Assembly (NCBI GenBank): GCA_029213065.1
Contig: JARGPH010000001.1
Location: 186,001 to 250,000, forward strand
Length of the DNA: 64,000 nucleotides
DNA from: Verrucomicrobiales bacterium
Lineage (GTDB): Bacteria > Verrucomicrobiota > Verrucomicrobiia > Verrucomicrobiales > DEV007
Direction: 5' to 3'
Shown here: positions 31,597 to 45,435 of the stretch, one piece after another
How positions within the stretch are numbered: position 1 is the stretch's first letter
Layout of the letters: every line of letters starts with the position of its first letter
Translations under genes and position numbers: made by a program
The notes under the pieces: generated by a model
Seen by the model: the letters and a program-made list of their open reading frames with translations, nothing else
Told to the model about the DNA's origin: nothing
Databases searched by the model: none

Positions 31597-33855
31597 TTGC
31601 CTGATAAAATTCCATCATCTGACGGATCGCTATCCCCTGTCCAATCCACAGGCGGAAATGTTTTTGGCGTCCCCGCAGGGAATCCCGGTGCGAAGCCGGC
31701 TTCAGGTCCTTCGACCGGCCACCATCTTGCTCCGATCCCGGGCCAACCGACGAAACCCGGCATCCCGGACTGGAATCCGATTTTAGACGAACTTCCCTAC
31801 GGCCTCGCGGTTTTCAGTCCCGAGCAGCAGCTTCTCCACGAGAACAGCACCTTTCGCGATCTACTCGGATACGGAATTCAGGAAAAAGGTGGCATCGAGT
31901 CCTGGCTTCGGGCACTGTCCACCGACGCAGCGCACGCATCCAAATTGATTGAGACGTGGCGTGAATACTTATGGCGAAATCAACTCACCCAGGTCTTTTC
32001 CCTGAAGTCCTCCAATCAGAAAATAAGAGAGATCGAGTTCCGGTCTTCACTTCTTCCGGATGGCGGTATCACGCTTACGATTCAGGATGTAACGGAAAAG
32101 CATCGCACGCAGGAAAATCTGCATCAGGGAAAACTCAAGTTCCGTGCTCTTTTCTCTCATTCCGAAACCGGAATCGTCCTAGTTGACCGGACCGGTCGAA
32201 TCATCGAGGCGAATCCCGCTTTCCTCAAATTGTCAGGTCAGGCGCTTTCGCAGCTTCGACTGAACACCCTCGCCGGTCTTCTCCATCCCCGCGATGCTGA
32301 AGCGCTGGAGCAGGAGGAAGCGGCACTTTTTAAATCCATCGACTCGGGGAACGGTGCAGGGCAGGTCGTTTCCAGAGAGATCTGGCTCCGCGCAAAAGAG
32401 AACGAGGTAAAAACGAAGCTCACCTTCTGCCCCGTCGGTGAAGATGCTCCGTCGCGGTCCATGGGGATCTATCTCTTTGAAAAACCTTCGACCTCAAACG
32501 AGGTCAACGAGCAGCTCGCGACGAAGCTCCAGGCGCTCGCGGTGAAGGCACAGGCCTTGATTGCTTCGGTTCCCGACTTGATCATCCTGATCAACCCGGA
32601 CCTCTCCATTTCAGACTACGCTCCACCACCGAAGCCATGGGAGGAAATTTCCCCCGACAAATCGTGGCGGAACAAGCTCATCACAGAGGTCTGGCCGGCT
32701 CTGGGCAATCTCGTTGAAGAGTCCCTTCCCAAAGTGCTTAAGAATGGCGAGAACGTTTGTGCCGAGATCCGCGGTGAGGACGGCGATCTTTTCTCTTTCG
32801 AGGTGAATCTCGCCGCCTGCGGAAACAGCCAGACCATCGCAGTGATTCGCAATCAGTCGGAACTGCGCCGCCTGCGTGAGGGTTCCGGCTGGCTCGAGGA
32901 AGCGTTTGCGAAAGCCCGCGACGCCGTCCTCATCTGCGATGCGACGGGACGAATTCAGCACACCAACGTATCGGGGGCTGCGCTCGTGGGAGTCTCGTGT
33001 GAAGAGCTGGTCGGAAAACGACTTGGGAGCCTCTATCGCTCGGAATCCGATCAGGGAGCCGGTTTCCAACGGAAAATTGCAATCGGCCTCTCCCACTCGA
33101 ACACCTGGGAATGTGAGGAACCGATCGTGACTTCCGAGGGAGTTACCGTCAAATGCACGAGCGAATTTCAACTGATCCGAAACGGCACAAAAGAGACGCT
33201 CCTCATGGTGACGATTCGCACCGGAAGCTCCACCTCAACTGCGGCAGCGCCTGCTCAGCCAGCAGGACTCAGCGACCCCGCCCTTTCCCGGGAAACCACA
33301 CAGCATTCCTTTCGCAATCAGCTCCAGCTGGTCACCAGTCTCTTTAACCTTGAGCCGCAGGGAGTCGCCGCACGCGACGCCTTCATCAAATGGCAGATCC
33401 GGCTTCGCTCGATGGCTCAGGCGCTGCCCTACGGAGCGGGTGCCGATATCGCGGTGGTTCCCCTGATTCGCCACATCGCCGACGAGGTTTGCTCACTCAC
33501 CGGACAGGGCCCCGGACGCCGCGAAGTGATCGTCACCGGTCTGGAATCCATCTCGTTGCCGGCTCAAACCGCGACGCCCTTCAGCCTTCTCATGGGCGAG
33601 CTGGTTCGCTTGATCGTGTGCGAAGGCCAGCGTGGCCCCGGCCCCGAACTCTACCTCAATCTTCACGAGGCAGGCGACTCGTTCCGCCTCGTCGTACGAC
33701 CGGGAACGAATCGCCGCTTCGCCTTTATCGACCGCGAAAGCGAAATCGAAACGCTGGAGATTTTGACCGAGCAAATTCAGGGCCGCCTCGATGTTCCCGC
33801 AGACGCTGATCCGTCGGAACAATGGGAATTACTCGTTCCTCTTCAGCCGAATTAG
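31597..33855 (+). CDS. multi-PAS sensor with degenerate HisKA_2-type kinase domain
   Basis: A 752-residue soluble protein. It starts at a TTG: an in-frame stop lies at 31555-31557, and no ATG occurs in frame until about residue 289. A Pro/Gly-rich N-terminus is followed by several PAS-like domains (LPYGLAVFSPEQQLLHEN; SETGIVLVDRTGRIIEANPAFLKLSG; ARDAVLICDATGRIQHTNVSG). The dimerisation helix HSFRNQLQLVTSLF (His570) matches the HisKA_2 pattern H-x-x-x-N-x-L-Q. In the ATPase domain the expected ELxxNA reads ELVRLIV, and the DxGxG box reads VVRPGTNRR, so ATP binding is doubtful. It may sense and modulate the hybrid kinase encoded next. Confidence 0.7.
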   Translation: MPDKIPSSDGSLSPVQSTGGNVFGVPAGNPGAKPASGPSTGHHLAPIPGQPTKPGIPDWNPILDELPYGLAVFSPEQQLLHENSTFRDLLGYGIQEKGGIESWLRALSTDAAHASKLIETWREYLWRNQLTQVFSLKSSNQKIREIEFRSSLLPDGGITLTIQDVTEKHRTQENLHQGKLKFRALFSHSETGIVLVDRTGRIIEANPAFLKLSGQALSQLRLNTLAGLLHPRDAEALEQEEAALFKSIDSGNGAGQVVSREIWLRAKENEVKTKLTFCPVGEDAPSRSMGIYLFEKPSTSNEVNEQLATKLQALAVKAQALIASVPDLIILINPDLSISDYAPPPKPWEEISPDKSWRNKLITEVWPALGNLVEESLPKVLKNGENVCAEIRGEDGDLFSFEVNLAACGNSQTIAVIRNQSELRRLREGSGWLEEAFAKARDAVLICDATGRIQHTNVSGAALVGVSCEELVGKRLGSLYRSESDQGAGFQRKIAIGLSHSNTWECEEPIVTSEGVTVKCTSEFQLIRNGTKETLLMVTIRTGSSTSTAAAPAQPAGLSDPALSRETTQHSFRNQLQLVTSLFNLEPQGVAARDAFIKWQIRLRSMAQALPYGAGADIAVVPLIRHIADEVCSLTGQGPGRREVIVTGLESISLPAQTATPFSLLMGELVRLIVCEGQRGPGPELYLNLHEAGDSFRLVVRPGTNRRFAFIDRESEIETLEILTEQIQGRLDVPADADPSEQWELLVPLQPN

Positions 33856-33957
33856 GGAGCTGTCAGGCATAGAACGCCTCTAAGCGTCTATTCTTCGAAA
33901 ATCTTCCTGTCATTGGTGAAAGATTGACTCTACCGTTTTAGTTTTTATAAAGCCTCT

Positions 33958-36552
33958 ATGGATGATTTGCCTGCCAACCGATTGCGTTTACTCATCGTCG
34001 AAAACGATCGAGTGACAGCGCGTGATCTCGAGGCAACCCTGCGTCGCCGCGGCTTCATCGTCGAGGGAATCGCCTATTCAGCCGAGCAGGCCAAAGATCT
34101 CGTAAAAGAGAAAGCCCCTGACTTCGTGCTCCTCGATATCCAACTCGGTGAGGGCAACGAAGGAATCGAGCTCGCCAAGTCGATTCGCGAAGAATACGAC
34201 GTACCCGCTGTTTTCATCACCGGGTATTCCGAGGATGCCCTTTATGAAAAAGCACGCGTCGCACGGCCTGCTGCTTTTATCCGCAAACCTTTTACCGACG
34301 CGGAACTCTCCGCCTGCCTCGAAGCGGTCGTGGAACGCAGCCTCGCCGAGGAACGTCTCAAGCTGCGGCTCCCCGGACTGGAGGCGGTCTCAGACCATTT
34401 ACCACAGGCAGTCGTCGCCTCCGATGTCGCCGGAAATGTGGTTTATCTGAATCATTCCGCCGAAACCCTCACCGGCTGGACAAAGGCCGATGCCTTCAGT
34501 GCCGAGCTGACGAAAGTGCTACCGCTGGAGATTCGGGAAACTCCTGACAGCAACGATAACGACAACAAGGAGGAATCGGACCTCGGGGAAGAGCGTCTCA
34601 AGCCGCGCAAGGCCACCCTTACCACAAAGACGGGCGAGAGACGCGAAATCGAAGAGCGCTCCGCCCCGATTAAGACAGGCGATGGCGAAATGATAGGGCT
34701 CGTCACCGTCATTGCGCCCTCCGCAGTTCATTCCCTTGCCGCGACCGCCCCCGACGATCTGCCGGGAGACGGAGATTTCATCATGCCGGAGGATCCAAGA
34801 CCGCTTCCCCCGGCACGAAGCGAAGCGCTCAAAAAGATCGCCTCGATTGCGAACGATCCCCAGTTCAAACAACTCATCAGGCAGCGCAAACCGGAAGAGG
34901 AAGCCAAGACAACTCGCGAAGCATCGTCTCACCCGAGCCCTCCCCCGCTTCCCACGGAATCGAAGCAGGCTCCTGACGTCACTTCCGTTTTCTCGGCGTC
35001 GAGCTCTCCGCTCATTGATGAAGTCGGCGACCCCCTCATGGTCATCAGCGAGGACGGGGCTATCACTTACGCCAACTCGGAGGCCGCAGCCGAATTTGGA
35101 AAGGGCGAGCCCCTCGTGGGAACGCGCTTCTGGGAACACTTCGGTGAAGACGAAGACGAGCGATACGACGCGCATTTCAATAAACCTCTCGTGACGGGAC
35201 GTCGGCACCGCTTCGATTTTCACGACACGAGCCGTGGAAAATGGTTCGAAATCCGCGCCTACCGGACACGCGGCGGAGTCCTCACTCTTTTCACCGACAC
35301 CACCGCAACCCGCCTCGAAGCCGCCGAAGCGGTTCGCCAGCAACGCCTCGAAGGCCTCGGCCTTCTCGCACGGGGATTTGCACACGACTTTAACAATCAC
35401 CTCACAACCCTCACCGGAAACATCAGCCTTGCCCGCGAGCGCCGCCCCGACGACGGCGAACTGCAGGACATGTTGAAAGAGGCGCAAACCGCGGCAACGA
35501 GAGCGACCGGGCTCGTCCAGCAGCTCATGACCTTTGCGAGAGGCGGACGCCCCATCCGCGAGCGCACCAGAGTGACTGACCTGATCCGCCGCGTCCTCAC
35601 CGAACACCGGATTCAGCATCCCGAGATTCGTTACCAGTTTCAGGGTGCCGAGACCGACCTCGTCGCCAACGTCGATCCATCGCAGGTGACACGCCTCATC
35701 GAGAACCTCGTTTCCAACTCCGCCGCCTCGATGACCAACGGAGGTGTCCTCATCGTGCGTTGCTCCAAAGTGACACCCGAGGAAGTCATGGCGATACGTG
35801 GCTCCCACACCCCCGCCGACGAGGACCACCTCCTCATCGAAGTGATCGACACCGGCCACGGCATGAGCGATGCAGACCTCGAATGCGTCTTCGAGCCCTA
35901 CTTCACAACGAGGAAGGAAAACAACGCCACCGGAATCGGCCTGACTGTCTGCGAGTCGATCGCAAAAGCCCACAGCGGCTTTATCCACCTGCAGTCCAAG
36001 GAAGGCAAAGGCACCATCGCCACCTTTTGCGCCCCGCTCGGTCGCGGCCCCGACTCCATGGGCGACGATCCCGATGCGCCGATCGCCTACCCGAATTTTG
36101 ACATTCCCAATCTCACTTCGAAGCCGCTTGTTCCGAAAGGCGAAGAACCGATCCTCGTGGGAACCCGCATTCTCATTCTCGAAGACGACGCCCCGATCCG
36201 GAGACTCATGGCAGCGACCCTGCGACGGGCCGGTCACGAAGTCGTCGAGACCAAAGAAGGACGCGAGACAATCGAAGTCTACCGCGAATCGATGGAGAAC
36301 AATTCCAAGTTCCACCTTCTCATCTGCGACCTCACGATCGAGAACGGAATGGGAGGCGTCGAAACGATGCGCCAGCTTGTGCAAATGGATCCCGAGATTC
36401 TCGCGATCGTCTCGAGTGGATACTCAGACGCACCGGCGATGTCCAGCCCCGCCAGCTTCGGCTTCCGCGGAGTCCTGCCAAAGCCCTACGCGCCAAGCGA
36501 GCTGCGTGCTGCCGTTCATCGCATGCTTTCGGCGCATCACATCATCCCGTAG
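33958..36552 (+). CDS. hybrid sensor histidine kinase: REC-PAS-PAS-HisKA-HATPase-REC
   Basis: An 864-residue cytoplasmic signalling protein. The N-terminal receiver has its phosphoacceptor at Asp60 (FVLLDIQLGEGNEG) and Lys in FIRKPF. Two PAS domains follow (about 140-260 and 345-465) with a charged linker between them. The dimerisation helix has His476 in ARGFAHDFNNHLTTLTGN, the NtrB-like HDFNN form. The ATPase domain has its N-box in ENLVSNSAASM and the G-boxes VIDTGHGM and ATGIGLT. A C-terminal receiver carries Asp791 (LLICDLTIENGMGG). No DNA-binding output domain or membrane span is seen. It follows the degenerate sensor by 102 bases and probably works with it. Confidence 0.9.
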   Translation: MDDLPANRLRLLIVENDRVTARDLEATLRRRGFIVEGIAYSAEQAKDLVKEKAPDFVLLDIQLGEGNEGIELAKSIREEYDVPAVFITGYSEDALYEKARVARPAAFIRKPFTDAELSACLEAVVERSLAEERLKLRLPGLEAVSDHLPQAVVASDVAGNVVYLNHSAETLTGWTKADAFSAELTKVLPLEIRETPDSNDNDNKEESDLGEERLKPRKATLTTKTGERREIEERSAPIKTGDGEMIGLVTVIAPSAVHSLAATAPDDLPGDGDFIMPEDPRPLPPARSEALKKIASIANDPQFKQLIRQRKPEEEAKTTREASSHPSPPPLPTESKQAPDVTSVFSASSSPLIDEVGDPLMVISEDGAITYANSEAAAEFGKGEPLVGTRFWEHFGEDEDERYDAHFNKPLVTGRRHRFDFHDTSRGKWFEIRAYRTRGGVLTLFTDTTATRLEAAEAVRQQRLEGLGLLARGFAHDFNNHLTTLTGNISLARERRPDDGELQDMLKEAQTAATRATGLVQQLMTFARGGRPIRERTRVTDLIRRVLTEHRIQHPEIRYQFQGAETDLVANVDPSQVTRLIENLVSNSAASMTNGGVLIVRCSKVTPEEVMAIRGSHTPADEDHLLIEVIDTGHGMSDADLECVFEPYFTTRKENNATGIGLTVCESIAKAHSGFIHLQSKEGKGTIATFCAPLGRGPDSMGDDPDAPIAYPNFDIPNLTSKPLVPKGEEPILVGTRILILEDDAPIRRLMAATLRRAGHEVVETKEGRETIEVYRESMENNSKFHLLICDLTIENGMGGVETMRQLVQMDPEILAIVSSGYSDAPAMSSPASFGFRGVLPKPYAPSELRAAVHRMLSAHHIIP

Positions 36553-36558
36553 AGGTAG

Positions 36559-36579
36559 ATGCCTTTTGCCCAAAGGCAT
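36559..36579 (+). terminator. terminator-like hairpin after the hybrid kinase gene
   Basis: ATGCCTTT (36559-36566) pairs perfectly with AAAGGCAT (36572-36579) around a five-base loop, 7 bases after the stop codon. No U-tract follows, so classical intrinsic termination is uncertain; it may instead stabilise the transcript end. Confidence 0.4.
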
Positions 36580-36700
36580 TGCCGTTGACATTCGGATTCA
36601 AACCGGATTTCCCTGAATTAGCCACTCCAGTCATTCATATCTTGATCACGATTGCAGGGTTTGCAGTAGATTAGCCCGCCTCGTCTTCGGGGATCGCCGT

Positions 36701-36994
36701 TCAGGACCTTCGGGTGCCATAACGAGGGTCGCGATGATTGTGGCGAACGACGATAATTCGGATGTGTGAAGGATATACTTTGAAGAGAAAATGGTAGGGG
36801 AACCGCTTGAGGTTGCTCCGTCGCACCCCGCTCGGATCAAAGTGATGACGCTCTGGAAACTGTTGGGCGTACTCGATCGCCTCAATTAATTCCGCCCAGA
36901 ACTCATCTCCAAGATTTCGTGAAATTCCTTCGTAATAGTTCGTCGCTTCCCGTGCCTCGGATGGTACCCGTGGATGATATTCAATCTGCCTCAT
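36701..36994 (-). CDS. RelE/ParE-family toxin
   Basis: A 97-residue basic protein with the ParE/RelE fold pattern: YHPRVPSEAREATNYYEGISRNLGDEFWAELIEAIEYAQQFP (helices), then VRRSNLKRFPYHFLFKVYPSHIRIIVVRHNHRDPRYG (strands). The RFPYHFLF segment and terminal R-x-P-x-Y-W-like element are typical of the plasmid-stabilisation group. Such toxins cut ribosome-bound mRNA (RelE) or poison gyrase (ParE); which applies cannot be decided here. Its ATG overlaps the antitoxin stop (ATGA), the usual coupled arrangement. Confidence 0.85.
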   Translation of the reverse strand: MRQIEYHPRVPSEAREATNYYEGISRNLGDEFWAELIEAIEYAQQFPERHHFDPSGVRRSNLKRFPYHFLFKVYPSHIRIIVVRHNHRDPRYGTRRS

Positions 36995-37200
36995 CCTCGT
37001 CCAACCTCGGCAAGAAACTGCTCGTGGCTGATCGGGGCAACTTCACCAGAGTCCATTTCCTCAACGCGGCGCTGTACTTCTTCATCATCAGGTCCCGGTG
37101 GCGGACTTGAAAGCGAGGCGAGCAAATGGGTAATTAATCCAGCCTTGTCCTCTTGGGATAAGCTGTCGGATTGATTTTGAACATCTGAAAGCGTGACCAT
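36991..37200 (-). CDS. antitoxin (addiction-module type) of the RelE/ParE pair
   Basis: A 69-residue acidic protein upstream of and overlapping the toxin. The ATG at 37200 yields MVTLSDVQNQSDSLSQEDKA, a start resembling addiction-module antitoxins; the frame is open for 11 codons further upstream. A helical N-terminal half (LITHLLASL) is followed by a disordered acidic tail (PPPGPDDEEVQRRVEEMDSG) that would wrap the toxin. No clear DNA-binding motif is visible. Confidence 0.75.
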   Translation of the reverse strand: MVTLSDVQNQSDSLSQEDKAGLITHLLASLSSPPPGPDDEEVQRRVEEMDSGEVAPISHEQFLAEVGRG

Positions 37201-37280
37201 ACCTAACGCTATCGCAGGTTCACCAGTTTTCAATCTTTTCAGCGAGCGCGAGAGGCCACCCTAATCAGGGAGCGAGACCT

Positions 37281-37395
37281 CGCGGGGGCGAAGAGAGTCT
37301 CCGAACGTTTCTGCGCCCCCGCGAAGGGCGGCATTCCAGCCGCAGGGATTCCGGTGGTTTCACCACCGGCTACAGCTCTTTTGAACCTCCGGTTC
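37281..37395. repeat. cluster of three inverted-repeat hairpins
   Basis: CGCGGGGGCG (37281-37290) pairs with CGCCCCCGCG (37314-37323). CCGGTGG (37351-37357) pairs with CCACCGG (37363-37369) around TTTCA. GAACC (37383-37387) pairs with GGTTC (37391-37395). They fill the space between the RGG-protein gene and the toxin-antitoxin genes, all read on the minus strand. Confidence 0.7.
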
Positions 37396-37417
37396 AGCAC
37401 CGGGCAAAACAGGAGCG

Positions 37418-39646
37418 TTACTCGCTTTTTGGTTCGGTCTTCTCCGGAGCGTCCTCAACGGGAGCCTCCGTGGCTGTTGCATCAGAGACTACCTCATCAG
37501 CAACAACCTCTTCAGTCGCATCAGGAGAAACTTCAGCCACCTCAGGCTCTGCCGCTTTTTCCGCTTCGACTTCCGGAGCCTTTTCCTTCGCAGCAGGTTC
37601 GCTCGCTTCTTCAGCTGGCACTTCCGCTTCAACGACCTCTTCCGTCGCAGGAACTTCTTCCGCCTTGGCCGATTCAGTTACCTCAGCCTTCGGAGCCCCC
37701 TCTGCGGGTGCCTCGGCTTCAGTTTTCACTTCCGCTTCCGCTTTGGTTTCCGCCGTAGCGTCACCTTCCGTTTTTGCTTCGCTTTTCACCTCCGCTTTGG
37801 CGACCTTCTTCTTCGCTGCCTTTTTCGCAGACTTCTTCGAGGCGGGTTGATCCGGTCTTGGACCTTTTCCGATGTGAAGTTTGGTGTCGGCAAATTCGAG
37901 GACATACCCTTCCGAAGTGAGCCAGCGAAGATTGCTGAGAACCTTCTTCGCCCCGTCGGTCAAGGGCACTTCCTCTTTCGGCGCAGCCTTATCGGCCTTG
38001 GGATCAGGCTTCGTAAAATCTTCGACCAGTGAATCGAGCATATCGACCACTTTGCGGCCCGGATTAGCGATCACGTAGTCGACAATCTTCTGAACTTCAG
38101 GACTGAGCGGGACTCCTGCGCTGATCGCGCGGGGACGAACCGATGAAACATGAAGCGCTTTTTTGCCGCGCTTGAAGAATCGCATGCCATGCTTTTCAAA
38201 CTCACGGCAGAGCGACTGAATCATCGGCAACGGGAAACCGCGACGAAGTTTTTCACTCTCCTGTTTCACGTATCCGAGGAGACCGGCGGAAAGGTCTTTT
38301 CCTGAGATATTACCGGGGACGAGAACTTCGCTGACTTCAGCAATCACCTCAGCGGAGAAATGCTCACGGAAATGTTGCGCGAGCTCTTCCTGAGACTTGA
38401 GCACGAGCTCTTCCACCTCCGGTGCAGAAGCCGCTTCCTCAGCAGGCTCTTCGGCGACAGCCTCCTCTGAATCAGCTTCGTCGCCGGCATCATCTGCCGG
38501 TGCCTCCTCCGGAGCTTCTGCGGTTGCCTCTTCGACGACTTCTTCAGCCGTTTCAGTTGCTGCCGCTTCGGTAGCTTCAGCACCTTCGGTCGTTTCCGCT
38601 GCCGCAGCCTCATCAGCCGCGATTTCAGCTTCGGCGGATTCAGCGCCTTCGCTTTCCGGAGCGGAATCTTCAGCGGCTTCTTCTGCGACCACTTCCTCTA
38701 CGACCTCCTCCTCACCCTTGAGGCGATAGTGACGCGCCTTGCTGACCTGTTCTTTCCACTTCTCAATCGTCTCCTCATCACTCTCCATTCGAATGCGGGA
38801 TTTCAGTCGCTCGATCGGCATGTTGGAAAATCGCTCCTGATGAAGGCGTGCGATGTTCTTCTGGTATTCGTGGTGGCTGGACGGCCCGAGCAAAGTCCCG
38901 CTCATGCCACAGACAGCAATGGCATTGAAGTTGCCTTTGGGGGCTTCCACTTCCACTTCTTCCACCGTGTAGTATTCTTTGATCGCCGGGCTGTTGAGGA
39001 CATGCGCTACGGCCTCCTCTTTGGTCAGCCAAAGGGATTTATCAGCAAGGCACTGGAACAGTTTCGCTTTTCCTGCCTCTGCTTTGAAATGGATATCGTA
39101 ACGCTCGCGCTCCTGAACAATCATCTTCGCCAGGTCGGAAACGGGGAAGGAGCGAAAAGTCTGTTTGATGTGACGAACCAGTCCCTCCACAGCGGGCTGC
39201 GAGGGTTCAAGTGACGCTGAAATACCTGCCGGCAATGGCTCGGGGCGATTTCTCTCGTAATCACGACCACCTCTGCGGTCGCCGCCACGTCTCTCACCGC
39301 CACGACGATCTCCGCCACCACGGCGATCCCCGCCGCCGCCATAGCCACCTCGCTGACCTCCACCACGGCGGTCGCCGCCACCTCCGTAGCCGCCTCGCTG
39401 GCCACCGCCACCTCCGCCATAACCACCACGACGGTCGCCTCCGCCACCTCGTCGATCATCTCCGCCACGACGATTTCCACCGCCACCACCTCGGCGGTCG
39501 CCACGGCCCCGTGATTTATCGCCTCCGTCGTCGTCGCGACCGAAACGCTTAGCGCTCGTCTTCGACTCATCTTGGCTTTTTTCCTGCGCCCAATCGGGCA
39601 TCAGATCTCGAGCTGAAAACTCCAGGGGGTTATCTCCGTCACTCAT
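37418..39646 (-). CDS. RGG-box, acidic-linker and KEA-rich-tail protein of unknown function
   Basis: A 742-residue protein of strikingly modular composition. The ATG at 39646 starts MSDGDNPLEFSARDLMPDW. Residues ~40-135 form a Gly/Arg-rich RGG region (repeated DRRGG, GYGGGG). A globular helical domain (~150-300) includes TFRSFPVSDLAKMIVQER and AVCGMSGTLLGPSSHHEYQ. A very acidic Glu/Ala linker follows (~300-415). A second helical domain (~415-570) includes GKKALHVSSVRPRAISAG and a winged-helix-like SNLRWLTSEGYVLEFADTKLH. The last ~170 residues are Lys- then Glu/Ala/Val-rich repeats. RGG boxes commonly bind RNA, so a nucleic-acid role is likely but inferred. It lies 35 bases downstream of hemL. 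No known family is recognised. Confidence 0.75.
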   Translation of the reverse strand: MSDGDNPLEFSARDLMPDWAQEKSQDESKTSAKRFGRDDDGGDKSRGRGDRRGGGGGNRRGGDDRRGGGGDRRGGYGGGGGGQRGGYGGGGDRRGGGQRGGYGGGGDRRGGGDRRGGERRGGDRRGGRDYERNRPEPLPAGISASLEPSQPAVEGLVRHIKQTFRSFPVSDLAKMIVQERERYDIHFKAEAGKAKLFQCLADKSLWLTKEEAVAHVLNSPAIKEYYTVEEVEVEAPKGNFNAIAVCGMSGTLLGPSSHHEYQKNIARLHQERFSNMPIERLKSRIRMESDEETIEKWKEQVSKARHYRLKGEEEVVEEVVAEEAAEDSAPESEGAESAEAEIAADEAAAAETTEGAEATEAAATETAEEVVEEATAEAPEEAPADDAGDEADSEEAVAEEPAEEAASAPEVEELVLKSQEELAQHFREHFSAEVIAEVSEVLVPGNISGKDLSAGLLGYVKQESEKLRRGFPLPMIQSLCREFEKHGMRFFKRGKKALHVSSVRPRAISAGVPLSPEVQKIVDYVIANPGRKVVDMLDSLVEDFTKPDPKADKAAPKEEVPLTDGAKKVLSNLRWLTSEGYVLEFADTKLHIGKGPRPDQPASKKSAKKAAKKKVAKAEVKSEAKTEGDATAETKAEAEVKTEAEAPAEGAPKAEVTESAKAEEVPATEEVVEAEVPAEEASEPAAKEKAPEVEAEKAAEPEVAEVSPDATEEVVADEVVSDATATEAPVEDAPEKTEPKSE

Positions 39647-39681
39647 CGTATTTCTTGGTAGGCTGTCGTGAGAGGTGAACC

Positions 39682-40974
39682 TCACTTAAAAATTTTCTTC
39701 AGGGCGTTACAGGTAACTTCCGTGGTTTTCTCCATATCATCCGCTGCATGCGCCATCGAGATGAACCCGGCCTCATACTGTGATGGGGCAAAATAAACAC
39801 CGCCATCCAGACAAGCCCAGAAAAATCGCGAGAACGCATCAAAGTCGGACTTCTTCACATCGTCCACATTTGTGATTTTGTCCTCCGTAAAGAAAAGACA
39901 AAACATCGAGCCAATACGGTTGAATGTGAGATCGCGACCGATCTCTTTCAAGGTTCCCCTGACACCATCCTCGAATGACTGGCCGATTTCTTCGAGCCGA
40001 TCCCATCCGTTTTGGCGATCCATCTCTTTCAACTGGGCAATCCCCGCAGCCATTGCGAGAGGATTCCCTGAAAGCGTTCCCGCCTGATAGACCGGACCGT
40101 CCGGCGCGAGGCAATCCATGATCTCAGCTTTGCCGCCGAAAGCCCCGACCGGCAAACCGCCGCCGATCACTTTTCCCATCGCTGTCAGATCGGGTGTCAC
40201 CCCGGTGCGCTCCTGAACGCCGCCTTTCGCGACGCGGAAACCGGTCATGACTTCGTCAAAAATCAGAACAGTGCCGTGTTTCGCGGTGATATCGCGCAAA
40301 AACTGCAAATAGCCATCCTCAGGGAAAACCAGCCCGGCATTTGCGGGAACCGGTTCCACGATGATCGCGGCGATCTCGTCGCCCATTTTTTCAAAAACCT
40401 CTTCAACCGCTGCGCGTCGATTAAAGGGAAGTGTGACCGTCAACTCAGCCAGTGCCTTCGGGACCCCGGCGCTGTCGGGAGTTCCGAGAGTAAGGGCCCC
40501 GCTGCCGGCGGCGACGAGGAGCGAATCAACGTGACCGTGATAACATCCTTCAAATTTAATGATCTTGTCACGGCCGGTATAACCGCGGGCGAGACGAATC
40601 GCGCTCATGGTCGCTTCGGTCCCGCTGCTGACCATACGCACCTTCTCAACCGAAGGCACGTAGTCGCGAATCAGCCTCGCGATCTCAATTTCGTGGCGAT
40701 TTGGAATCCCGAAACTGACGCCTTCCTTTGCCGCCTGAGTCACCGCATCAATCACCACAGTGGGAGCGTGTCCGAGAATGGCCGGGCCCCAGGTGCCCAC
40801 GTAATCGACCATTTCATTGCCATCGACGTCCCAAATACGGCTGCCTCTGGCACGCTGAACGAAGAACGGCTCTCCACCAACGCTTTTAAAAGCACGCACA
40901 GGGGAATTCACTCCTCCGGGAATCACTTCTTTTGCTGCGCGGAAAAGCTTCGATGATAAATCACGTTTGACCAT
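39682..40974 (-). CDS. hemL: glutamate-1-semialdehyde 2,1-aminomutase
   Basis: PLP enzyme making 5-aminolevulinate in the C5 haem pathway. Highly typical throughout: PGGVNSPVRAFKSVGG at the start, GSRIWDVDGNEMVDYVGTWGPAILGHA, SSGTEATMSAIRLARG, KFEGCYHGHVDS, FDEVMTGFR and the cofactor lysine at 268 in MGKVIGGGLPVGAFGG. The length of 430 residues is normal. Haem demand fits the many haem proteins in the window. It is divergent from the LysR gene and precedes the RGG-protein gene on the same strand. Confidence 0.97.
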   Translation of the reverse strand: MVKRDLSSKLFRAAKEVIPGGVNSPVRAFKSVGGEPFFVQRARGSRIWDVDGNEMVDYVGTWGPAILGHAPTVVIDAVTQAAKEGVSFGIPNRHEIEIARLIRDYVPSVEKVRMVSSGTEATMSAIRLARGYTGRDKIIKFEGCYHGHVDSLLVAAGSGALTLGTPDSAGVPKALAELTVTLPFNRRAAVEEVFEKMGDEIAAIIVEPVPANAGLVFPEDGYLQFLRDITAKHGTVLIFDEVMTGFRVAKGGVQERTGVTPDLTAMGKVIGGGLPVGAFGGKAEIMDCLAPDGPVYQAGTLSGNPLAMAAGIAQLKEMDRQNGWDRLEEIGQSFEDGVRGTLKEIGRDLTFNRIGSMFCLFFTEDKITNVDDVKKSDFDAFSRFFWACLDGGVYFAPSQYEAGFISMAHAADDMEKTTEVTCNALKKIFK

Positions 40975-41111
40975 ATAGTTGCCAATGAATCCCTCCTCAT
41001 GAGCTTCGTCAACAAGCGCTTCGTGCCATCGGTGAGCGAATTGTTGTTTTTTCGATTTACGATACCTGCTCCTTCATCTTAGATGGCTCTCCTGTTTCCG
41101 ACTTGTCAGGG

Positions 41112-41118
41112 TAAGGAG
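41112..41118 (+). promoter_or_regulatory. strong Shine-Dalgarno site of the LysR gene
   Basis: TAAGGAG, two bases before the ATG at 41121. Spacing is short but the match is close. Most other genes here lack such a site, so it firmly fixes this start. Confidence 0.6.
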
Positions 41119-41120
41119 TT

Positions 41121-42026
41121 ATGAACGTTCACCATCTCGAACTGTTTTTCTACGTGGCCAAGCACGAAGGCATCACTGAGGCCGTGCGTAAAATGCCCTA
41201 TGGCATTCAGCAACCCGCCGTGAGCGGCCAAATTCTGCAATTGGAGAAGGACCTCGAGGTAAAACTGTTTCACCGCCGCCCCTTTGCTCTCACCCCCGCC
41301 GGAGAGGAGCTCTACGATTTCATCTACCCCTTTTTCTCACGGTTAGGGCAAATCGGAGAACGACTCAGAGGGGAGGAAAGCTGTCACCTCCGGCTGGCTG
41401 CCTCAGCCGCCGCGCTGACCCATCACCTCCCCGATGTGCTTCAGGACCTTCGTGAAAGCTTTCCCGACCTCCGCCTCACCCTGAAGGAATTGTCCAATCC
41501 TGACATTGAAGCAGCTCTGATTAAGCAGGAAGCCGACGTCGCCGTTGCCGTTCTCCACGGAAAAACGGGAGTCGGCCTCAAGACCATCAAGCTGGTCGAC
41601 CTGCCCCTCGTCATTGCCGCCCCTGTAACCTCTTCGGCCACGACCTTCCGCGAGATCTGTTCCGGTTCGAGCGGCGAACTGCTCCATCCCCTCATATCCT
41701 TACCGCGATGCGAGCCTGTCGCGCAGATTTTTCAGCAGGGCCTCGCCCGGAGAGAACTGAGGTGGCCGCCCTCGATGGAAGTGAACGAGCTGGGACTGAT
41801 CCTCAACTACGTTTCACGCGGCTTCGGATACGGTGTCGCCGTCGATATTCCCGGAGTGGACTGGCCGCAGGGTGTCAAAAGAATCAAGCTTCCCTCGGAC
41901 TTCCCCCCACTTACGATTGGCGTTCTCCATACCGGAGATTTGAAACCTCTCGCGGAAGCTTTTATTGCACTTGCGAAAACCCATGCGACAAAGTTGCGGA
42001 AGCTGGGTTCCAAAAAGAAAAACTGA
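41121..42026 (+). CDS. LysR-family transcriptional regulator
   Basis: A 301-residue regulator with the N-terminal LysR helix-turn-helix (LELFFYVAKHEGITEAVRKM, then QQPAVSGQILQLEKDLEVKLFHRR) and a periplasmic-binding-like effector domain from about residue 90. The recognition helix departs a little from the consensus S-Q-x-x-V-S form. It is divergent from hemL across a 146-base gap where its operator would be expected, so hemL could be a target; this is inference only. Its TGA is directly followed by the ATG of the HAD gene, so the two are co-translated. Confidence 0.88.
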   Translation: MNVHHLELFFYVAKHEGITEAVRKMPYGIQQPAVSGQILQLEKDLEVKLFHRRPFALTPAGEELYDFIYPFFSRLGQIGERLRGEESCHLRLAASAAALTHHLPDVLQDLRESFPDLRLTLKELSNPDIEAALIKQEADVAVAVLHGKTGVGLKTIKLVDLPLVIAAPVTSSATTFREICSGSSGELLHPLISLPRCEPVAQIFQQGLARRELRWPPSMEVNELGLILNYVSRGFGYGVAVDIPGVDWPQGVKRIKLPSDFPPLTIGVLHTGDLKPLAEAFIALAKTHATKLRKLGSKKKN

Positions 42027-42885: not shown

Positions 42886-45435
42886 CTATCGAGCCGGCAA
42901 TGGCTGGCGAACCGGCTTTTTCTTTCCGAAAAGCTTCTGCCCCAATCGCTTGAGCGGCTGTTCTTCCACCTGAACCTCTTCGACCATCTCAGCCCGGTGC
43001 TGGATCGTTGGAAGACCCGGCTCAGGAAACACTTGAGCCGCTTCCTGCCCCACATCGGTTCTGACATCTTCGTCGTAGCTCGAGAACACTGCCTCCTGGT
43101 CATCATGAACCACGATCGGTTGAATGAAAATCATCAACTCGGAGCGGCTTTTGCTCTTGTTAGTCGATTTGGCGGCACTGCCGAAGACCGGGATATTTTT
43201 CAATATCGGAATACCGGCTTCATCAACGGTTTCTGTTTCCGAGATGAGACCACCGAGAATGATCGTCGAACGATTCGCCACCGTAACCGTGGTATTCAAC
43301 TCCTGCTTGCCGATGATAGGAATATCATTTCCCGCTACAAGCTGTGTTCCGACAATGCGGTCGTTGATCTGAACAATATCAAGAGTGACCTCATCGTTGT
43401 CATTGATCGTGGGAAGCACCTCCAATTTGAGCACGACCTGTTTGAACTCAATGCTGGTTGTCACGGTGGCGTTGTTCACCTGTCCTGAAGCATCGGTGAT
43501 ACTCTGCCCCGGCACGGGAATTTCCTGACCGGAGGTGATCTCCGCCCGCTTGCCGTTCTGCGTGTAAACAACAGGTCGTGAGAGCACTTTGAATCGCTCC
43601 GTCGACTCCAGCGCGGTGACAACGACATCGAGTGACTGCCCGATCTGCCCATACAAATTCAAACCACTCGTGGGCCCGAACGGGGTCGTCACCAGCATGT
43701 CAGCGAGATTGGCGACATTGCCTCCACTGCTGATATCATTCCTTCCATTGAGGAGCCCGCCTGAAAAGCCTCCCTGGGTGAGATCGCTGCCGCGGAACGG
43801 AACATATTTTTGAAGAAAATCGACGCCGAACTGGGTGTCGTCACCGAGGCGAAGCTCACCGATCACAGTAGCGAGATAGACCTGAAGCGGCTTGCGATCG
43901 AGACGATCAATCATATCAAGAACAACCCGCTCCGACTCCGCAGATCCCATGATGATTATGCTGTTCGACTGGCGGTCAGCGATGATGCGAGTTTTTCCCA
44001 CGAGAACCGAAATGGGGGCCGATTCATCCACGGGAAAGGCAATCTGATCCTGGCGCTCATCCCCGTCGGTTGTCGTTTGATTCTGTTGGGTCCGGTTCTG
44101 CGCATTTTGATTCGTATTGTTCGCACCGGTCAGCGTAGCGAGCTGCGACGAAGTCACCGGCGTCTGACGGGTCTGGATCTGGCGCCCGCCCGGAAGCTGC
44201 GTCTGCCCTGTCCCGGTGTCCTGGAGGATGTCGACGATGACCGGTAGAATATCGATCGCCTTGGCGTGCTGGAGCTTCCGCTCAATCGGATCTTTCACCG
44301 TGGAGGGCTGATCAAATTCATTAATCAGACCGAGGATGTAGGCCACATCACTCGGAGAGGCCACCACCATAATCCGGCTGAGCCTGTCGTCCGGAATCAA
44401 CTGAGCAGCCGGCTGATCCGACGTGCCAATCCCATTGGTCACCTGCGCGCGTGTATTTCCGTTCGCCCGGTTGTTATTTCCGTTATTAGCATTTCCCCCG
44501 TTATTACCATTGTTCCCGCCCCCGCGGTTTTCGCCGTTGTCATTTTGCTGACCGCTCACCGTGCCCCGGTTTTCGCTCTGGCGTTCCCGCTCCACCATTC
44601 TCGCGTCCATCGCAGCCTGGATGATCTGCGCGACCACATTCGGCTCTGCGAAATCGAGCTTCACAAACTCGGTAATAAGAGGCGCATCGTCGACAGGGTG
44701 ATCAATAATCGAGCGCAGACGAATCAACTGACGCACAATCGGTGACGTCTCGGTAATAAGCAGCCCGCGGGGATTTGTCACCGGGGTGATCCGCCCGAAT
44801 TCGTTCAGAATAATGTGATTCCCGAAAATAGTCGTCGCATCATCAGGGCTGATGTAATCGAGCTCCATGAAGAAACCGACCAGCGACTCGCCGTCCGGCA
44901 GCAATTCCGGATCGGTGTAAATCACGACCCCCTCACTGAAAGAAGCGCTGCTGGCTCCTTTGCGCTCCCCCCCGAGGAGCACTTTGACACTTTCTTCATT
45001 CGGCTCCACCACGAGAATGTAGCCATTGACCAGCAAGGCAGCCTCGATTAGACGAATCGCCTCCTCTCTTGAAACCTCCGACGGCGTCACCAAACTGACC
45101 TGAGGTCCCGAGAAAATTGTATTGTCTTTCACAATCGGCTTATCAATGAGCCGCTCGTAGATACTGAGAATGTCGTTTACCGGGTTCAACGGAAACTGAA
45201 GACTGACACGGTCGCCAATCGGGCCGCCGCCACCTCCTCCGGGACCTCCCGGTCCACCGGGCCCACGCCCTCCGGGTCCCCCGCCACCGGGCCGCTGCAG
45301 ATTCGATGGGGCCTGACGCGTCTCCGTTTGATCATCGTCCTGAGCGAACGAGAAAGAAGCAGTAATCAAAATAAGAGCCAGCCCTACACAAAGCGTGGCG
45401 ATGCGGCTGTTCAGCCGTTCGAAAGGGTAAATCAT
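42886..45435 (-). CDS. gspD: type II secretion-type secretin (GspD/PulD family)
   Basis: Outer-membrane ring protein of 849 residues. It has an N-terminal signal peptide (ATLCVGLALILITASFSFAQ). A Pro/Gly-rich linker (about 45-75) follows, then N-domains with KH-like folds (SREEAIRLIEAALLVNGY, then RLIRLRSIIDHPVDDAPL). One N-domain holds an Asn/Gly-rich insertion at about 300-330. The secretin domain is near 580-790: SGQEIPVPGQ, VVLKLEVLPTINDNDEVTLDI, TTVTVANRSTIILGGL and SELMIFIQPIVV. No other secretion gene is adjacent, so the rest of the apparatus lies elsewhere, or this serves a type IV pilus-like machine. Confidence 0.88.
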   Translation of the reverse strand: MIYPFERLNSRIATLCVGLALILITASFSFAQDDDQTETRQAPSNLQRPGGGGPGGRGPGGPGGPGGGGGGPIGDRVSLQFPLNPVNDILSIYERLIDKPIVKDNTIFSGPQVSLVTPSEVSREEAIRLIEAALLVNGYILVVEPNEESVKVLLGGERKGASSASFSEGVVIYTDPELLPDGESLVGFFMELDYISPDDATTIFGNHIILNEFGRITPVTNPRGLLITETSPIVRQLIRLRSIIDHPVDDAPLITEFVKLDFAEPNVVAQIIQAAMDARMVERERQSENRGTVSGQQNDNGENRGGGNNGNNGGNANNGNNNRANGNTRAQVTNGIGTSDQPAAQLIPDDRLSRIMVVASPSDVAYILGLINEFDQPSTVKDPIERKLQHAKAIDILPVIVDILQDTGTGQTQLPGGRQIQTRQTPVTSSQLATLTGANNTNQNAQNRTQQNQTTTDGDERQDQIAFPVDESAPISVLVGKTRIIADRQSNSIIIMGSAESERVVLDMIDRLDRKPLQVYLATVIGELRLGDDTQFGVDFLQKYVPFRGSDLTQGGFSGGLLNGRNDISSGGNVANLADMLVTTPFGPTSGLNLYGQIGQSLDVVVTALESTERFKVLSRPVVYTQNGKRAEITSGQEIPVPGQSITDASGQVNNATVTTSIEFKQVVLKLEVLPTINDNDEVTLDIVQINDRIVGTQLVAGNDIPIIGKQELNTTVTVANRSTIILGGLISETETVDEAGIPILKNIPVFGSAAKSTNKSKSRSELMIFIQPIVVHDDQEAVFSSYDEDVRTDVGQEAAQVFPEPGLPTIQHRAEMVEEVQVEEQPLKRLGQKLFGKKKPVRQPLPAR

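Follow-up and report, generated by a model that had tools for sequence, protein, structure and literature searches.

Several described proteins resemble parts of the protein analyzed here. Members of the Ros/MucR family carry bacterial C2H2-type fingers in which the second ligand is sometimes Asp or which hold no zinc, and these fingers still bind DNA (PMC9779718). MecI/BlaI, MarR, AspA, and the N-terminal domain of RNase R have a winged-helix fold, and eukaryotic RGG-box proteins, with TSR3 as an analogue in build, combine an Arg/Gly-rich disordered arm and an acidic segment on one chain. RGG repeats mediate non-specific RNA interactions (PMC4275035). The gene at positions 37418-39646 of the window (the whole 64,000-nucleotide stretch of Verrucomicrobiales DNA that was analyzed) encodes a protein with elements of all these systems. 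It shares with Ros/MucR what is most likely a C2H2-derived finger in a bacterial protein, and along its family the second Cys is replaced by Asp or the zinc site is lost, as in Ros/MucR. Unlike Ros/MucR, which is a small alpha-proteobacterial regulator with a βββαα domain, this family has its ββα unit embedded in a domain of ~180 aa that is followed by a winged helix, and it carries an Arg-rich arm. The likeness to MecI/BlaI, MarR, AspA, and RNase R concerns the fold of residues 509-600 alone (Z up to 8.0), i.e., one segment only, at ~6-22% identity. In contrast to the eukaryotic RGG-box proteins and TSR3, with which no homologous globular domain was detected, the RGG triplets of the family are not conserved. 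To Hfq, ProQ, and CsrA there is a likeness in proposed role only, and no sequence relation was detected. We suggest that the family combines known elements in a new way and is a candidate for the handling of RNA or of the nucleoid in a phylum that has received little study.

The gene lies on the minus strand (ATG at 39646, stop codon at 37418-37420), encodes 742 aa, and has orthologues in 31 of the 37 nearest genomes. A sequence-only reading had described an ORF at 37418-39646 with RGG repeats, an acidic linker, two globular parts, and a tail, and both the coordinates and this list of parts agree with our analysis. The globular parts had been placed at residues 150-300 and 415-570; both are present but wider, extending over residues 134-313 (domain A; 38708-39247, minus strand) and 411-~600 (domain B). 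In a comparison with L070, the nearest relative, dN is 0.05-0.07 and dS 0.75-1.2 for domains A and B, and dN is ~0.3 for the linker and tail. Based on the low dN relative to dS in domains A and B, the substitution pattern supports a genuine gene under constraint whose low-complexity parts evolve fast: the two domains are under purifying selection, and the linker and tail drift.

The reading had also considered this build rare in bacteria, which does not hold for the conserved build within Verrucomicrobiota. Using a search with the domain A alignment, we detected domain A in 135 of the 142 genomes of the order, including 122 of the 124 near-complete ones. Across the phylum, domain A is present in 177 and domain B in 172 of 288 genomes, each nearly always in one copy, and in nearly all carriers the two domains are on one protein in constant order. 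Among those compared, a single genome (G243) has domain B alone, and there the match lies at the beginning of a contig. The named loci nearly all carry a Verrucomicrobiota label (Prosthecobacter, Haloferula, Roseibacillus, Chthoniobacter, and Akkermansia-labelled assemblies among them), and the domain A family is missing from several complete genomes of the window's class, genomes of 0.9 Mb among them. Because the branching of the domain A tree broadly follows taxonomy, the history of the family appears consistent with vertical descent. We found no paper on the family within a limited library. Apparent gene splits in four relatives (G001, G010, G021, and L096) lie within the low-complexity linker or at contig ends; in L096 and in L016, L037, and L071, the gene appears as two overlapping frames split inside the acidic linker. 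In L016, an ambiguous base is present at the split and therefore this split is a probable assembly error; the splits in relatives are probably assembly breaks or errors.

A conserved element of the flexible parts is a linear motif close to the N terminus (residues 8-20; 39587-39625, minus strand), which reads LEFSARDLMPDWA in the window and LDLDFIPTWAR or ADFQFGPAWAR in relatives (L001-L189). The strict pattern [FLMIV]x?PxW[AVGIL] was counted in 139 of 146 homologues against an expectation of 1.5 from shuffles, and the remaining 7 carry clear variants, e.g., FNFGTQW. At the DNA level, a pattern of the local form has a single match in the 5.9-Mb genome. Judged from its conservation pattern, this [FLM]xPxW[AV] peptide preceding the arm looks like a docking motif for a partner, and it could serve to fish out that partner.

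The motif is followed by the Arg/Gly-rich arm (residues 33-133; 39248-39550, minus strand), which has a net charge of +13. Of its 101 residues, 26 are Arg and 48 are Gly. Its 11 RGG triplets give the window protein an RGG box in the sense of clustered RGG/RG in a low-complexity segment. Shuffling segment 33-133 gave 5.8 +/- 1.7 RGG (p = 0.004), and whole-protein shuffles gave 0.5 expected; based on this comparison, the oddity of the arm is mainly one of composition, to which residue order adds a little. Searched on its own against its own genome, the arm sequence matches only the 37418-39646 gene. In homologues, the Arg content of the arm is at least 15% in 97% of 147 sequences and the net charge is positive in all 147, but only 33% of homologues have three or more RGG triplets. 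The linker between the two domains (residues 314-410; 38417-38707, minus strand) is an acidic Ala/Glu segment with 38 D/E, 32 Ala, and no K/R; it is lineage-specific, and in homologues a median of 12 aa separates domain A from domain B. The disordered C-terminal tail (37421-37846, minus strand) consists of a short Lys-rich patch and then an acidic Ala/Glu-rich stretch. It had been described as basic, which applies to its first ~25 residues, which are Lys-rich, but residues 613-742 are acidic overall with a net charge of -26. As general traits of the family, the RGG triplet, the acidic linker, and the KEA tail did not hold up, all three being lineage-specific. By homologue comparison, the conserved build is motif, basic arm, domain A, and domain B, with RGG repeats and acidic linker as local elaborations.

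Domain A, which is conserved phylum-wide based on alignments, gave an AlphaFold2 model with a mean pLDDT of 90.1. Searches of the model against the Foldseek PDB and viral libraries gave no match at E<0.001 in either, no structural Z exceeded 3.1, the top PDB rows were weak, scattered zinc fingers, and comparison of domain A with the PDB by sequence gave nothing credible. Judged from the predicted structure, domain A is thus without a recognized overall fold. It contains a ββα unit (38987-39064, minus strand) with strands at 64-66 and 71-73 and a helix at 76-85 of the domain A model. At this place, the window reads LFQCLADKSLWLTKEEAVAHVLNSP, and relatives from other families have a canonical C2H2 finger, e.g., FYQCSLCKAVYLDTDHLQSHLLQDH. 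A canonical C-x2-C-x(10-14)-H-x(3-5)-H is present at the aligned place in 14 of 41 phylum-wide sequences; among 19 sampled relatives from outside the window's class, 14 have an intact C2H2 finger, and these 14 all fall within one supported clade of the domain A tree. Several of the finger-bearing relatives are matched by Pfam C2H2 profiles, below the cut-off (best E 7e-4). Across the window's class, Asp mostly takes the place of the second Cys, and the window's own lineage also lacks the last His; the window protein itself has C199, D202, and H215 and no fourth ligand, so that the full C-x2-C-x12-H-x3-5-H set is absent. Structurally, the unit matches the single finger 2els weakly (VIA-align Z 2.5, 1.8 Å, 30 aa). 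We conclude that the ββα unit in the window is most likely a decayed C2H2 finger, though not C2H2 by its ligands, and the family would offer a traced case in which a zinc finger decays and the fold stays.

The most conserved residues of domain A lie elsewhere, in the CGxSG..LGPPxHH.Y...H block (C246, P255, H259, and H269). The top-conserved stretch in the alignment, GNF..(A/V)VCGxSG..LGPPxHHxYQ, maps to 38828-38935 on the minus strand. C246, H259, and H269 are invariant in the 67-sequence set, and a few of the more distant members are without the Cys or the His. Going by this conservation, the block could conceivably form a metal or catalytic site.

The domain B model has a mean pLDDT of 86.9. 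Its first half (residues 411-508; 38123-38416, minus strand) is helical with a β-hairpin (FKRGKK.L.V..RP), and F83, K84, and P97 of domain B are invariant in 66 sequences; no fold was matched to this half, but winged helices fill the match list. The second half (residues 509-600; 37847-38122, minus strand) is a winged helix based on structural and profile matches, with helices at 108-119, 125-132, and 156-171 and strands at 174-176 and 181-184 of the domain B model. In VIA-align comparisons, residues 509-600 matched MecI (1okr; Z 8.0, 71 aa, 3.2 Å) and MarR (3bpv; Z 7.9, 64 aa, 2.3 Å), and the profile of domain B matched the AspA winged helix (E 0.001). The structural list for domain B also contains RNase R (8cdv) and RPA32C, and ESCRT-II is the top Foldseek row. 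For a predicted model, a Z of about 8 is evidence for the fold, which is a common one, and not for a function. The earlier description of two unrecognized domains therefore stands with respect to family models, of which there are none, but not with respect to structure, since a winged helix makes up the second half of domain B and domain A holds a degenerate C2H2 finger.

Searches with Pfam and NCBIfam on the whole protein gave chance-level matches only, in agreement with the sequence-only reading, which could name no family; Pfam searches with domains A and B and with all alignment members likewise gave only matches at chance level. A PHROGs search gave nothing credible, Pfam scans with the protein and with its relatives list no Ros/MucR family, and the window protein gives no Pfam match to the Hfq (PF17209) or ProQ (PF04352) profiles. 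A match of the globular parts to an enzyme family, which had been named as evidence against an RNA-binding protein, was found in none of the searches run. We also considered an internal duplication, an idea that came from a cross-match between the starts of domains A and B in Akkermansia-like sequences, and rejected it based on a profile-profile probability of only 0.7% for the start of A against the start of B.

The combination of a basic arm, a finger-derived unit, and a winged helix suggests nucleic-acid binding. This direction had been proposed before and gains from the positive Arg-rich arm being conserved in homologues. We give about an even chance to the view that this single-copy protein of Verrucomicrobiota binds nucleic acids and acts, most likely on RNA, as a chaperone or scaffold. 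In such a protein, the N-terminal motif would dock the protein on its partner; the long Arg-rich arm, judged by its composition, would bind the nucleic-acid backbone without sequence preference and raise the local concentration; ordered binding surfaces would come from two predicted folds, domain A, which includes the C2H2-derived ββα unit, and the domain B winged helix; and acidic linkers and tails, where present, could tune or compete with the basic arm. We prefer RNA over DNA because of the arm and the lack of Hfq and ProQ: neither scores in any of the 288 phylum genomes, with the E. coli control scoring, and CsrA is present in only 26 of 288 genomes, none of them in the window's order and most in one family (f9). 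With Hfq and ProQ absent and CsrA scarce, these families do not visibly cover an RNA-chaperone role. The absence of Hfq and ProQ is circumstantial, as genomes without the family lack both too, and the unconserved RGG triplet, the finger that is degenerate in the window's class, and the absence of an operon partner count against the RNA reading. The more specific proposal of a phylum-specific global RNA chaperone or RNP-body scaffold, docked by its N-terminal peptide and built on domain A as a new domain that derives in part from a C2H2 finger, seems to us rather unlikely. If it is true, such a protein does in Verrucomicrobiota the job that falls to Hfq, ProQ, or the tail of RNase E in other bacteria. 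This unnamed family, which has no Pfam model, is a concrete candidate for regulatory-RNA handling in bacteria that lack Hfq and ProQ.

It also counts against the RNA reading that DNA is a ligand of winged helices and of C2H2 fingers no less frequently than RNA is. A less likely alternative is a chromosome organizer or transcription protein in which the winged helix and the C2H2-derived unit contact DNA that is coated by the Arg-rich arm, a role comparable to that of Ros/MucR or other nucleoid-associated proteins. Domain B has its best structural matches in MecI and MarR, whose winged helices bind DNA, and AspA is a centromere-binding protein; moreover, the change of Cys to Asp in domain A parallels the Ros/MucR fingers with Asp or no zinc (PMC9779718). 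However, the winged-helix fold is also found in RNA-binding proteins, of which RNase R (8cdv) is among the listed matches, Arg/Gly-rich arms are more familiar from RNA-binding proteins, and for domain A as a whole the searches run gave no match to a DNA-binding structure. That the N-terminal motif and the charged arms instead bind the ribosome or RNA polymerase, with contacts to rRNA, as in a ribosome or translation factor, is distinctly unlikely. Several complete genomes of the same class do without the family, which argues against a universal core factor, and ribosomal genes are not linked to the homologues, although a single copy in 122 of 124 near-complete genomes of the order is the usual pattern for core factors of translation or transcription, and TSR3, a eukaryotic protein of rRNA maturation, combines an RGG stretch at its N terminus with an acidic region at its C terminus (PMC4275035). 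It is very improbable that the globular parts do not bind nucleic acids at all and that the winged helix and the ββα unit are protein-protein modules with arms that serve as solubility or spacer segments: a neutral spacer would need no charge, and the arm is net positive in every one of the 147 homologues. This alternative draws on winged helices that act in protein interaction, such as ESCRT-II in the top Foldseek row and RPA32C, and on the fast divergence of the linker and tail.

The gene had been placed just after hemL. A hemL-like gene (39682-40974, minus strand), outside the feature, is indeed the upstream neighbor on the same strand, at a distance of 35 nt, but among 86 homologous loci it is the immediate neighbor in only 7. 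The view that this adjacency is uninformative is borne out, as the neighborhood gives no functional hint and no partner recurs widely. Synteny is confined to close relatives, with folP in 15 and hemL in 8 of the 86 loci, and no operon partner linking the family to RNA metabolism is conserved among these loci. Rfam gave no match in 36000-42000, and a scan for promoters and terminators gave no more sites than in shuffles. Nearby on the minus strand, a 97-aa ORF (36701-36994) resembles by eye a RelE/ParE-type toxin and has no Pfam match at E<0.001. On the plus strand, 31597-36552 encodes two adjoining multi-PAS sensors, the second of which, a hybrid histidine kinase, has two receiver domains; both are syntenic with the 37418-39646 gene in close relatives only. 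On the other side, 42886-45435 (minus strand) encodes a secretin (PF00263, PF03958) that has an N-terminal segment rich in Gly and Pro as well as Asn-rich inserts.
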